Source: Marinomonas sp. SBI8L
GTDB lineage: Bacteria > Pseudomonadota > Gammaproteobacteria > Pseudomonadales > Marinomonadaceae
DNA length: 64,000 nt
Direction: 5' to 3'
Assembly (NCBI RefSeq): GCF_001624705.1
Contig: NZ_JSEO01000018.1
Location: 1-64,000, forward strand
Part shown: positions 48,929-61,650 of the stretch, piece by piece
Position numbering within the stretch: the stretch's first letter is position 1
Layout of the letters: the number at the start of each line of letters is the position of its first letter
The notes under the pieces: model-generated
The model's input: the letters and a program-made list of their open reading frames with translations, nothing else
The model's database searches: none
Told to the model about the DNA's origin: nothing
Position numbers and translations under genes: made by a program

Positions 48929-50368
48929 TTAGCGCTCTACGGATTTCGCTTCGTTTAGCTGGTTTTTCTTAATGATGGAATCGTAGTAGCCGGCGAAAGT
49001 GGGACGTTCAAAGTGCTTACCGTCCCCAGGTTGGGCTAACAACTCTCCTTCGTGCCAAGCTAGCTTGCCGTTACATATGGTTGAGGTTGCACAACCATTT
49101 ACAGTCATGCCTTCAAAGATATTGAAATCAATTTTAGACATCTGGGTATCAACACTTAGGGTCTTACTCGAATTTGTATCCCAAATAACTAGGTCAGCAT
49201 CAGAGCCAACAGCGATAGCGCCTTTTTGTGGGTAGATATTGAATATCTTAGCTGTGTTGGTTGAGGTAATAGCAACAAACTCATTTGGTGTCAGTTTACC
49301 TGCGTTAACACCTGTTTCCCAAAGAACAGCTAACCGTTCTTCAACCCCCGCTGTACCATTTGGAATTTTAGTGAAATTATCTTTACCCATGGCTTTTTGT
49401 TCTGCACAAAAAGCACAGTGGTCTGTCGCTGTGGTATGTAGCGTACCAGATTGAATCCCTTTCCAAAGTGCATCTTGGTGGAATTTAGGTCTGAAAGGAG
49501 GGCTCATTACATGAGCGGCTGCTCGACCCCAGTCAGAATCTTGATAAACACTGTCATCTATTACTAGGTGGCCAGCTAGACATTCACCATAAATTGTATG
49601 GCCAGAGTTTTGTGCATACTGAATGGCATCGACCGCTTCTTTTGTCGAAACATGTACTAAATAAAGTGGCGCGCCTAACGTGTTCGCAATACTAATTGAG
49701 CGGTTGGCCGCTTCACCTTCAACCGAAGATGGGCGAGAGAGTGGGTGAGCTTCTGGGCCCGTAATACCTTGTTCTAATAATTGTTGCTGAAGGTGGTAAA
49801 CCAACTCGCCGTTTTCGGCATGTACTGTTGGCATGGCGCCTAATTCTAAACAACGACTAAAGCTTGCTACCAAGATATCATCGGTCGCCATGATGGCATT
49901 TTTATAGGCCATGAAGTGCTTAAAGCTATTTACACCATAGTTCTGGGTTAGCTCTGCCATTTCTTCTTTAACACTTTCATCCCACCAAGTAATGGCAACG
50001 TGAAAACTGTAGTTCGCATGGGATGACTGGGCCCAGTCTTGCCATTGGTGATAGGCTTCAATTAAAGACTGCTGAGGACTTGGGATAACAAAATCTATAA
50101 TAGAGGTTGTACCACCCGCTAAAGCGGCTGCTGTGCCTGCTGCAAAATCATCTTTTGCTACCGTCCCCATAAAAGGCAATTGCATATGAGTATGGGGGTC
50201 TATACCACCAGGCATAATTAACTTTCCACTGGCATCGACGACTTGTGTGTCTTTATCAATTTCTAAGTCTTGACCTATTGCGGTAATTTTACCGTCTTTA
50301 CAATAAATATCTGCTTGATAGCTAATTTCGTGAGTGACTATGGTTCCGCCTTGTATTAGTAAGGACAT
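48929..50368 (-). CDS. hydA: Dihydropyrimidinase / D-hydantoinase
   Basis: A 479-residue cyclic amidohydrolase that opens the dihydrouracil or hydantoin ring to give an N-carbamoyl amino acid. Metal and catalytic segments are [13 protein letters not shown] (two His), [10 protein letters not shown] (the carboxylated Lys), [17 protein letters not shown] and TATDHCAF (Asp). The C-terminal [12 protein letters not shown] is typical of true dihydropyrimidinases. The start is ATG 50368, preceded by GGGAGAG. It is the last gene of the leftward set hyuC-transporter-hydA, so product and next enzyme are encoded together. Confidence 0.93.
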
Positions 50369-50449
50369 GGCTTCTCTCCCTAAGAGCAATTAAAGAATAG
50401 GGCACCTAATACAACGAATGAATAGGTGCCTAATTTGATAAAAGATGAA

Positions 50450-51937
50450 TTATTGAGCTGAGGTTGCACCATCAGAGATGGCTTGGTTTTGCTGTTGACC
50501 TGCGACAAAGTAATAAATAACTGCACCAGAGATGGCACCAGTAAACCAACCGTAGCTATAGAACCAGGTCAGTACATCAAAGGTTAATGAGATAACAGTG
50601 ACGGCAACAGGCAGGCAGAAGGCAATAAAGCCAGCGCTATTAAACAAAGGGTATTGATTGTCTTTGCTATAAAGAGAAACAAGATCCAGTTGTTGGCGTT
50701 TGATTAGGAAGTAATCAACCATCATGATGCCAGCGATCGGGCCTAATAAACTTGAGTAGCCCAGTAGCCAGTTAGAATACATACTCTCAACACTGACATC
50801 TGAAACAATCCAGCCCATCTTTTTCATCAGTTCCCAGCCCATCAGCAGAATACCGACAACCCCTGTCATTAATACGCCACGTGTGTGGTCTATGTATTTA
50901 GGTGCAATGTTTTGAAAGTCATTCGTTGGTGATACAACGTTAGCTGCGGTATTGGTTGAAAGGGTGGCAATAATGATTAGGAACATAGCAATAGCAACCC
51001 AGAATGGGTTGTCTATTTTACCAATAAGACTGATAGGGTCTGATACGGTTTCACCAACTAGGTTAACGGATGCTGCGGTTAAAACAACGCCGAGTGCCGC
51101 AAAGAAGAACATAGTAATAGGTAGGCCTATGATTTGACCTATGATCTGGTCTTTTTGTGATTTTGCATAGCGGCTAAAATCAGGGATATTAAGAGACAGC
51201 GTCGCCCAAAAACCTACCATGGCGGTTAAGCCTGCAAAGAAGTAGCCCCAAAAGCCAGCATCTGCTGGACGGTTGGCTGGAATCGCAAGTACTTCTGAAA
51301 TCGATACTTTATCGCTGGCCCAAAACATCAACCCAAGACCTACCACTAATAAAAGAGGAGCAGATAATGTTTCAAGCCACTTAATAGATTCTGAGCCTTT
51401 TATAACGATGAAAATATTCAAAGCCCAGAATATAAAGAAGCCAATCACTTCTCCTACAGAGCCTAGGCTTGCCCAGCTATCTGAAAAAGAGGAAAAGAGT
51501 AGATGTATCGCTAATCCGCCAAACATGGTTTGAATACCGAACCAACCGCAAGCGACAAGACCTCGGATTAAACAAGGAATATTTGAACCAACTATACCAA
51601 AGGAAGAACGTAATAAAACAGGAAAGGGAATACCATATTTGGTACCAGCAAAAGCGTTTAATGTGAGTGGTAAGAGTAGAACGACATTAGCAAACAAGAT
51701 GGCTAACAAGGCTTCGGTAACAGATAAACCAAAATAAGCAGTTAATACACCGCCAAGGGTATAGGTTGGAACACAAATAGCCATGCCTACCCAAAGGGCG
51801 GCTATGTTTACTTTATTCCAGGTTCTTTCTTTTACTTTGGTGGGCGCCAGGTCGGCATTATAATAATCACTTTTTTCTAGGTCTGGGCCCACTTGGAGCT
51901 CATAAAAATCATCTACTTTAACTGACTTACTGGACAT
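50450..51937 (-). CDS. NCS1-family nucleobase/hydantoin:cation symporter
   Basis: A 495-residue inner-membrane transporter with about 12 helices. WNKVNIAALWVGMAICVPTY at the first helix, GIPFPVLLRSSFGIVGSNIP near residue 105 and NIPDFSRYAKSQKDQIIGQ near residue 250 are NCS1 (Mhp1/PucI/CodB) hallmarks. The family carries uracil, cytosine, allantoin or hydantoins with Na+ or H+. Position between a dihydropyrimidinase and a carbamoyl-amidohydrolase gene suggests pyrimidine bases or hydantoins. The start is ATG 51937, with GAGG upstream. Confidence 0.92.
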   Translation of the reverse strand: MSSKSVKVDDFYELQVGPDLEKSDYYNADLAPTKVKERTWNKVNIAALWVGMAICVPTYTLGGVLTAYFGLSVTEALLAILFANVVLLLPLTLNAFAGTKYGIPFPVLLRSSFGIVGSNIPCLIRGLVACGWFGIQTMFGGLAIHLLFSSFSDSWASLGSVGEVIGFFIFWALNIFIVIKGSESIKWLETLSAPLLLVVGLGLMFWASDKVSISEVLAIPANRPADAGFWGYFFAGLTAMVGFWATLSLNIPDFSRYAKSQKDQIIGQIIGLPITMFFFAALGVVLTAASVNLVGETVSDPISLIGKIDNPFWVAIAMFLIIIATLSTNTAANVVSPTNDFQNIAPKYIDHTRGVLMTGVVGILLMGWELMKKMGWIVSDVSVESMYSNWLLGYSSLLGPIAGIMMVDYFLIKRQQLDLVSLYSKDNQYPLFNSAGFIAFCLPVAVTVISLTFDVLTWFYSYGWFTGAISGAVIYYFVAGQQQNQAISDGATSAQ

Positions 51938-60516: not shown

Positions 60517-60642
60517 ATAACTTAGTTGTGCTGACAAAGGTATTTAACGGCTTTTGACATTATTCAAGAGTGGAACAGATTGTTAGACGTAAATGTAAGT
60601 AGATGAAAACAATAAAAACTTGAAGACAAAGAGGAATAAAGA

Positions 60643-61650
60643 ATGGAATTTGGTATTACTTTTAAAGGCTTCGTGAGCCCAAATCGTGCTAGAAATTTAG
60701 TGAGACAAGCCGAAGAAGCAGGCTTTGATTATTGCTGGTTCTATGACTCTCATATTTTGTGGCGTGAATCATTTGTTGCTATGGCTATGTGTATGGAGCA
60801 TACAAAAACCATGCGTTTTGGACCTTGCGTAACTAACCCTAATATTAGAGATTGGTCTCTTTCTGCTAGCCTTTATGGCAGCTTGGCAGCGCAAAGTGGC
60901 GGCCGTTTTGATATTGGCTTAGGCCGTGGTGACTCATCTATGAGGGTGATGGGTAAGAAGCCAGCACCTTTGGCTCGTGTGGCTGAATTTACACATAAAG
61001 TAAAAGCCATGGTTCGCGGTGAAGAAGTTAGTTATGGCGAGTGTGAAGAGCCTGTTAAGCTACCTTGGGCTGATGGCTATGAGTTACCCGTTTGGATTGG
61101 TGCATATGGCCCTAAAGCCCTTGCTACTGCAGGTGAAGTGGGTGATGGTGTCATTTTGCAAATTGCTGAACCCAGCTTGATCACCTGGTTTAAAGACCAA
61201 GCGATTACAGCGGGCGAAGCTGCCGGTAAAGACATGTCTAACTTTAAAGTTCAGGCTGCTGCTCCTGCTTACTTCGGTAAGATGGAAGATTGTGTCGAAC
61301 ACACTAAATGGTTCCCAGCTATGGTAGGTAACCATGTGGCAGATATCGTTGAGAAATATGGTGCTGATTCAGGGCTTGTACCAAAGAGTCTAACGGATTA
61401 TATCGAAAACCGTAAAGGTTATGATTATTCAAAACATGGTCAAAGTGATAACCCTTATCTAGATTTCATCTCTGAAGATATTGTTAAAAGTTTCTGCGTA
61501 TTAGGCGAGGTGGATGATCATATTGCGAAAATTCGCAATCTTGAAGAAGCGGGTACCACTCAGTTTAATATCTATTTAGATAATGGTGATGAAGAAAACA
61601 TCATTGCCCAATACGGTAATCACATTATCCCTGAATTTAAAAAAGGGTAA
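60643..61650 (+). CDS. F420-dependent LLM-class oxidoreductase (CPS_4354-type family)
   Basis: A 335-residue TIM-barrel enzyme of the luciferase-like (LLM) flavin/F420 superfamily. The first strand and helix (MEFGITFKGFVSPNRARNLV), AEEAGFDYCWFYDSHIL and RFDIGLGRGDSSMRVMGK match F420-using members; I recall a dedicated subfamily named after Colwellia CPS_4354. It lies 126 bases after the NADPH:F420 reductase and closes the F420 locus with a terminator behind it. In context it is the candidate enzyme acting on uracil, thymine or a related ring. That substrate is inference; RutA is a distant relative in the same superfamily. Confidence 0.9.
   Translation: MEFGITFKGFVSPNRARNLVRQAEEAGFDYCWFYDSHILWRESFVAMAMCMEHTKTMRFGPCVTNPNIRDWSLSASLYGSLAAQSGGRFDIGLGRGDSSMRVMGKKPAPLARVAEFTHKVKAMVRGEEVSYGECEEPVKLPWADGYELPVWIGAYGPKALATAGEVGDGVILQIAEPSLITWFKDQAITAGEAAGKDMSNFKVQAAAPAYFGKMEDCVEHTKWFPAMVGNHVADIVEKYGADSGLVPKSLTDYIENRKGYDYSKHGQSDNPYLDFISEDIVKSFCVLGEVDDHIAKIRNLEEAGTTQFNIYLDNGDEENIIAQYGNHIIPEFKKG

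Follow-up and report, generated by a model that had tools for sequence, protein, structure and literature searches.

The window analysed here, a 64,000-nucleotide stretch of Marinomonas sp. SBI8L (contig NZ_JSEO01000018.1, positions 1 to 64,000), raises the question of why genes of pyrimidine breakdown and a complete operon for the synthesis of coenzyme F420 should stand back to back, parted by a regulator gene resembling rutR, at positions 48929–61650. The answer favoured here is that the oxidoreductase of the luciferase-like monooxygenase (LLM) class encoded at the far end of the F420 operon, a member of family TIGR03842, very probably reduces uracil and thymine with F420H2 as step 1 of the reductive pyrimidine (Pyd) pathway. 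This reading draws on gene-family assignments, on conserved linkage, on the mutual exclusion of the LLM gene and the known step-1 genes preA and rutA in all but eight of the genomes examined, on palindromes upstream of the operons and on the uracil-contacting residues of the regulator.

The locus and its genes

Window annotation and profile searches place eleven genes in this interval. The arrangement in the original prediction, with hyuC, an NCS1 transporter gene and hydA leading leftwards and the cof genes through to the LLM gene leading rightwards, holds for the order, strand and place of every gene. Scores are given against the cut-off of each model.

48929–50389, minus strand: hydA, dihydropyrimidinase, step 2 (TIGR02033, 569 bits against 393)
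50450–51973, minus strand: NCS1-family nucleobase:cation symporter (PF02133, 311 bits; TIGR00800, 320 bits, under the cut-off of 353)
52081–53316, minus strand: hyuC-type M20 amidohydrolase (TIGR01879, 426 bits against 204)
53820–54458, plus strand: RutR-like TetR regulator (TetR_C_3, PF08362, 159 bits; RutR structures 6z1b and 3loc, E 3e-45)
54843–55976, plus strand: cofG, FO synthase subunit (TIGR03550, 472 bits against 213)
55977–57380, plus strand: cofH, FO synthase subunit (TIGR03551, 498 bits against 374)
57383–58363, plus strand: cofD (TIGR01819, 282 bits against 257)
58360–59028, plus strand: cofC (TIGR03552, 130 bits against 105)
59009–59794, plus strand: cofE, F420-0:glutamate ligase (TIGR01916, 247 bits against 181)
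59845–60516, plus strand: npdG, NADPH-dependent F420 reductase (TIGR01915, 201 bits against 150)
60643–61650, plus strand: LLM-class oxidoreductase (TIGR03842, 526.5 bits against 295.45)
61671–61700, plus strand: intrinsic-terminator-like hairpin with a T run, 3' of the LLM gene (−15.8 kcal/mol, z −4.36, equalled in 0 of 200 shuffles)

The F420 synthesis set is complete, with CofG, CofH, CofD, CofC and CofE all above their NCBIfam cut-offs. From cofG through cofE each gene touches or overlaps the next; a gap of 50 bp then precedes npdG and one of 126 bp the LLM gene. Since the LLM gene is followed by the strong hairpin and T run, it seems to be the last gene of the F420 operon; a consensus terminator scan does not include this hairpin in its list.

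The family model TIGR03842 (F420_CPS_4043) is a hypothetical equivalog whose name assigns no function, and no published function for TIGR03842/CPS_4043 was found in the literature searched, which did not cover subscription papers and preprints. Within the genome the model gave one strong match, the LLM protein of the window, and one weak partial match; the closest LLM protein among named genomes, from Marinomonas sp. MED121, is 97% identical. Mer is the closest solved protein in both fold and sequence and the nearest folds are F420 enzymes, suggesting that the LLM protein may bind and use F420. Mer itself was set aside as its identity, since the protein reaches only 124.7 bits with the Mer model TIGR03555 (cut-off 348.7) and the catalytic glutamate reported at position 6 of Mer (PMC11094777) is replaced in all 23 aligned family members, by Thr in 11, Cys in 11 and Val in one. 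Gln173 and Asp97, aligned with Mer positions C and D, are invariant in the same 23 proteins. A RutA-like monooxygenase was also set aside: that the protein is a flavin-dependent pyrimidine monooxygenase working like RutA, with the cof genes unrelated to it, is highly improbable given a fold comparison that puts F420 enzymes first.

The best solved relatives of HydA are 5ykd and 5e5c (D-hydantoinase/dihydropyrimidinase, E 5e-225); its real start probably lies a few codons within the longest open reading frame, and that of cofH is probably likewise internal to the listed frame. The product of hyuC is a probable beta-ureidopropionase (step 3), a specificity suggested by homology, because the models whose cut-offs the protein exceeds are the general hydantoinase/carbamoylase model TIGR01879 and the allantoate amidohydrolase subfamily model NF006769 (593 bits against 452), and no beta-ureidopropionase model passed. 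Among its solved relatives are the N-carbamoyl-beta-alanine amidohydrolase 8c46 (413 bits) and the beta-alanine synthase 1r3n, with three generically named entries ranking above both.

Assignments of this breadth would also suit an enzyme that reduces a different ring (another pyrimidine, a hydantoin precursor or a purine-derived lactam), opened by HydA and HyuC outside any uracil pathway. The relatives of HydA include hydantoinases, HyuC passes the two models just named, and NCS1 carriers also transport hydantoin and allantoin. A putative F420 luciferase-family yanthine reductase has, moreover, been proposed in Chloroflexota (PMC12507026). A different ring is nevertheless unlikely in view of the regulator and of the genes that accompany hydA in other genomes, both described below.

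Distribution of the LLM gene and of the known step-1 genes

A PreA or Rut system elsewhere in the genome would have spoken against the original prediction. No PreA was found above the cut-off (the best match, partial and with E 8e-12, was taken for dihydroorotate dehydrogenase; PreT and fused PydA were not searched separately) and no RutA match at E 0.001 (no separate search was aimed at URC or oxidative uracil pathways), and a known step-1 enzyme elsewhere in this genome was set aside on these results.

Comparison was extended to 57 related genomes, 36 of them of the same genus, which share ancestry so that the counts are not independent events. TIGR03842 was above cut-off in 18 of the 57, all within the genus, hydA in 19 and cofG in 27, a frequency that softens the original statement that F420 is rare in gammaproteobacteria, since these relatives belong to the same order. 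The LLM gene, hydA and cofG occur together in 18 of the 36 genus genomes; a further genome (G027) has hydA and cofG on a contig (L131) that breaks off within cofC, short of where the LLM gene would lie. RutA was above cut-off in five of the 36, none of them LLM-bearing (chance of no overlap 0.023). Since 13 of the 36 have neither the LLM gene nor RutA above cut-off, this exclusion alone is weak evidence. Eight relatives outside the genus carry CofG with no TIGR03842 above cut-off and no hydA at E 1e-120, so that hydA tracks the LLM gene and not F420 synthesis generally.

Two kinds of F420 operon are present within this one order. In the genus, cofG and cofH are separate (CofG frames of 377–418 residues in 19 genomes), and eight other genomes of the order have CofG in frames of 805–1026 residues, the size of the fused FbiC.

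A scan of named genomes confirmed 190 LLM relatives, of which the best 80 provided the loci compared here. Their hosts include Vibrio, Alteromonas, Halomonas, Marinobacterium, Oceanospirillum, Amphritea, Limimaricola, Leisingera, Pseudovibrio, Paracoccus denitrificans and Herbaspirillum, among others. In the 80 stretches (up to 10 kb on each side, many genes being cut at the stretch edge), tblastn found cofH, cofD, cofC, cofE and npdG in 76, cofG in 71, the RutR-like gene in 73, hyuC in 49, NCS1 in 40 and hydA in 24; at least one of hyuC, hydA, NCS1 and an aminotransferase gene was present in 64. The association of genes at the locus far exceeds chance, and this co-occurrence of LLM, hydA, hyuC, rutR-like and cof genes supports the functional unit originally proposed.

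Whole-genome searches covered the genomes of 49 of the 80 loci and a Streptomyces record, with E limits of 1e-100 for hydA and 1e-80 for PreA and RutA. HydA was found in 48 of these 50, PreA in eight and RutA in none. The eight genomes with both PreA and LLM, those of L092, L095, L098, L099, L101, L102, L104 and L109 (Limimaricola, Leisingera, Thalassovita and Epibacterium), each have two or three hydA genes, one of them 3.7–6.1 kb from preA; these parallel sets, PreA–hydA plus LLM with a further hydA, apparently represent two uracil pathways in one cell.

Among 50 hydA-bearing plasmid records (E up to 1e-100), 37 had PreA, ten had LLM, three had neither and none had both; the ten LLM records are all Leisingera and thus not independent. 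The PreA count used 50 of 61 PreA plasmid records: the ten omitted rows, from Escherichia, Salmonella and Selenomonas, do not overlap with the 50 hydA records, and one further PreA record could be one of the three with neither. Two of the 12 LLM plasmid records lie outside the 50, that of Paracoccus alcaliphilus, which on its record is a real exception, and one from Streptomyces, whose hydA, at 37% identity, presumably falls beyond the E limit. In a class sample of 369 genomes, 16 had hydA, ten PreA and two LLM; every PreA or LLM genome had hydA and no genome had both, the counts being lower bounds since only the best four or five first-look candidates per genome were scored. The original proposal that the LLM enzyme replaces dihydropyrimidine dehydrogenase thus gains comparative support from the plasmid records and from the absence of PreA and RutA matches in the genome itself.

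HydA and the LLM gene lie within one fetched stretch, at most 14.6 kb apart, in 34 of the 49 genomes; coordinates alone had given 42, reduced to 34 on inspection of the fetched stretches. The pairing persists in at least six gene orders, counted by eye across Alpha-, Beta- and Gammaproteobacteria and an actinobacterium, and such variety speaks against one block passed on unchanged. In two stretches the LLM gene accompanies hyuC, NCS1 and a RutR-like gene, with hydA as well in one (L089) and without it in the other (L119), and no cof genes were found in either, the search being confined to the stretches themselves. The best single argument that TIGR03842 belongs to pyrimidine breakdown and not to F420 synthesis comes from Streptomyces sp. 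BHT-5-2 (L135), in which a TIGR03842 protein (590 bits, 42–43% identical) is encoded directly 3' of a dihydropyrimidinase gene (554 bits; only 37% identical). A class III aminotransferase gene lies upstream, and tblastn detected no cof genes within 29 kb.

These results also bear on whether the cof and pyrimidine operons could be mere neighbours, with the LLM enzyme serving some other F420 process and step 1 falling to an unrecognised enzyme. Linkage within the genus could indeed be inherited as a block, and some LLM loci have no pyrimidine genes nearby, but the survival of the pairing through so many gene orders, the association of the LLM gene with hydA or hyuC in stretches that show no cof genes (L089, L119 and L135) and the joint absence of TIGR03842 and hydA from the eight CofG relatives with long frames make mere proximity very unlikely.

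Several observations do weigh against a dedicated role in uracil reduction. Sixteen of the 80 stretches lack hyuC, hydA, NCS1 and an aminotransferase gene alike, and four of the 16 hydA genomes in the class sample have neither PreA nor LLM. HydA and LLM do not share a stretch in 15 of the 49 genomes: G426 and G459 lack hydA at the E limit; G437, G446, G449, G451, G454, G457 and G463 carry the two on contigs of different length; in G441, G445 and G465 hydA sits on another contig; in G467 and G471 it forms a separate locus; and the only hydA of G461, 36% identical, is elsewhere. For the seven genomes named from G437 to G463, several of the hydA contigs start or stop within the cluster (at pntB or hyuC), as a fragmented assembly would produce, though this leaves the linkage unproven. 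The LLM gene also occurs without pyrimidine genes on the Paracoccus alcaliphilus plasmid (L137) and on a contig of a metagenome-assembled genome (L115).

On L137 the order cofGHDCE–npdG–LLM stands beside ABC transporter and formate dehydrogenase genes, and the record has no hydA at E 1e-100. On L115, a 10.5-kb contig in which neither pyrimidine nor cof genes were found, the TIGR03842 gene (489 bits) lies near genes for an NADPH-dependent FMN reductase and a GMC oxidoreductase (4872–9021), possibly as a side branch of the family. The cof–LLM cluster of a contig labelled Nocardioides marinus DP1N28-1 (L105) is laid out as in Leisingera, and this record may be mislabelled or mixed.

The gene set originally predicted was confirmed but is not the whole of it in some relatives, whose clusters also hold pntAB or genes of beta-alanine catabolism. 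Matches to pntA/pntB (tblastn) occur in the stretches of 15 of the 49 genomes, in Leisingera, Halomonas, Amphritea and Marinobacter clusters. In Vibrio and Alteromonas the clusters further include an omega-aminotransferase gene (AptA model; 698 bits against 500 in L061) and a gene of the methylmalonate-semialdehyde dehydrogenase type (347 bits, below the cut-off of 448, the gene being cut by the stretch), the two activities that usually follow beta-alanine.

The regulator and its candidate operators

The TetR protein between the operons had been predicted to be a RutR homologue. It is RutR-like and keeps the uracil contacts, but at 189 bits it misses the cut-off of 368 for the RutR equivalog TIGR03613. 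Of the residues described as holding uracil in E. coli RutR (Trp77, Tyr97, Trp167, Gln171 and Gln179; PMC10891134), all five are conserved in the regulator of the window and in 71 of the 73 regulators found at LLM loci. Two RutR-type palindromes, neither assigned a strand, accompany it.

53446–53461: palindrome TTTACCAAATGGTCAA in the gap between hyuC and the rutR-like gene (1 mismatch to the E. coli RutR consensus)
54728–54743: palindrome TATACCAAATGGTAAA upstream of cofG (3 mismatches to the same consensus)

The letters of the consensus used for this scoring are those that we take to be the E. coli RutR consensus and were not confirmed in the literature searched. For the RutR box, PMC10891134 confirms no more than a palindrome of roughly 16 bp, and the E. 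coli rutA–rutR gap contains no exact ACCAnnTGGT. With up to three mismatches, the window holds eight matches to the assumed consensus against 3.2 expected, so that the pattern alone is weak.

Across loci, 36 of 46 in the gamma/beta group have an exact ACCAnnTGGT in the 300 bp before cofG (against a mean of 0.15 and a maximum of 1 in shuffles), although a large share of these are Marinomonas and so not independent; the commonest form among 51 sites upstream of cofG and hyuC is TTTTACCAnnTGGTAAAA. The division into alpha and gamma/beta loci follows record titles, with L105 (Nocardioides) counted as alpha and L116 (Pseudomonadota) as gamma/beta. As a control, the motif was found upstream of cofH, cofE, npdG, LLM, hydA and NCS1 at 0 gamma/beta loci; it precedes the regulator gene at eight of 51 loci. 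In the RutA-bearing genomes of the genus it precedes rutA in five of five, and a RutR homologue is encoded in four of these five stretches. Weighing against a shared operator are its absence upstream of cofG at all 25 alpha loci and at ten of the 46 gamma/beta loci, and its presence upstream of hyuC at only ten of 41 gamma/beta loci. A further palindrome, ACCAAATGGT, found inside the LLM gene at many loci, was dismissed as the codons for a conserved Thr-Lys-Trp.

From these motifs and residues, both operons are apparently under one uracil-sensing switch and F420 synthesis is probably induced by uracil. By analogy with E. coli, the RutR-like protein would repress and uracil would relieve the repression.

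The same evidence bears on the possibility of a different ring. A regulator that retains all five uracil contacts, the identical palindrome core before rutA in the five RutA-bearing sister genomes, the occupation by PreA elsewhere of the place of the LLM gene beside hydA, and the beta-alanine-type aminotransferase and semialdehyde dehydrogenase genes of the Vibrio and Alteromonas clusters all speak against it.

A promoter scan was uninformative (16 found against a shuffle mean of 29.4). To the left of the locus (46500–48817) are genes for a TetR regulator, a CGNR zinc-finger protein and an alpha/beta hydrolase. A large sensor-like protein, judged from its translation, starts past the hairpin on the plus strand (about 61900–64000) and runs off the end of the window.

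Proposed pathway and known systems

In the pathway suggested by these comparisons, the NCS1 carrier would import uracil or thymine, NpdG would reduce F420 using NADPH, and the LLM enzyme would transfer a hydride from F420H2 to the ring of either base, with dihydrouracil or dihydrothymine as the product. HydA would open the dihydropyrimidine ring and HyuC would release beta-alanine (or beta-aminoisobutyrate), CO2 and ammonia. The neighbouring cofGHDCE genes would supply F420, and the uracil-sensing RutR-like repressor probably acts on both operons at matching operators, which would tie production of the cofactor to demand; in clusters that hold it, the PntA/PntB transhydrogenase would raise NADPH for NpdG. 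The reaction, the use of F420, the direction of regulation and the substrates of the carrier and of HyuC are proposed here by homology and context.

As to mechanism, the original prediction is very likely right, and the locus would encode a form of the reductive pyrimidine pathway in which step 1 falls to an enzyme of a new class. A broader view, favoured on balance but held less firmly, is that TIGR03842 constitutes a class of dihydropyrimidine dehydrogenase unrelated to PydA and that F420 is chiefly catabolic in one branch of the Proteobacteria, the whole operon with its split cofG and cofH being switched by uracil through a RutR-type operator for this one reaction. If the proposal is correct, the orphan F420 family TIGR03842 would acquire a function. 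A 2021 review of F420 names the role of F420 in Proteobacteria as unanswered and describes FbiC as fused there (PMC8498797); the separate cofG and cofH found here represent another type of proteobacterial F420 operon, and for species with this cluster the locus offers a direct, testable answer to why Proteobacteria make F420.

No report of F420H2-driven uracil reduction in catabolism was found in the literature searched, judged by titles and the beginnings of abstracts. A parallel in chemistry is SSGG-03002/NpsU of the uridyl peptide antibiotics, a putative F420/FMN enzyme described as genetically required for reduction of the uracil ring (PMC10714638). It differs in belonging to antibiotic tailoring, the likeness to TIGR03842 being one of description and not of sequence comparison, and as a precedent it counts partly against the proposal, since it was reported inactive in vitro (PMC10714638). 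In the putative yanthine reductase of Chloroflexota, a luciferase-family protein is likewise proposed to replace another reductase in nucleobase breakdown, although in a purine route and another phylum (PMC12507026).

Close counterparts in gene content are the Pyd clusters with PydA or PreTA. These share with the present locus a dihydropyrimidinase, a probable ureidopropionase and a transporter, and with several of its relatives the aminotransferase and semialdehyde dehydrogenase. They differ in step 1, which in Pyd clusters is carried out by an iron-sulphur flavoprotein of the dihydroorotate dehydrogenase family, PydA/PreTA, and which is here proposed to fall to an LLM-class TIM barrel encoded beside F420 genes. 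The electron donors so far described for uracil reduction are NADPH, NADH and ferredoxin (PMC7332683), to which F420 would be added as a fourth, used by an enzyme of another family. PydAc, a ferredoxin-dependent dihydropyrimidine dehydrogenase, likewise has an altered step-1 electron donor but is described as still a PydA homologue (PMC7332683), whereas the enzyme of this locus belongs to a different family.

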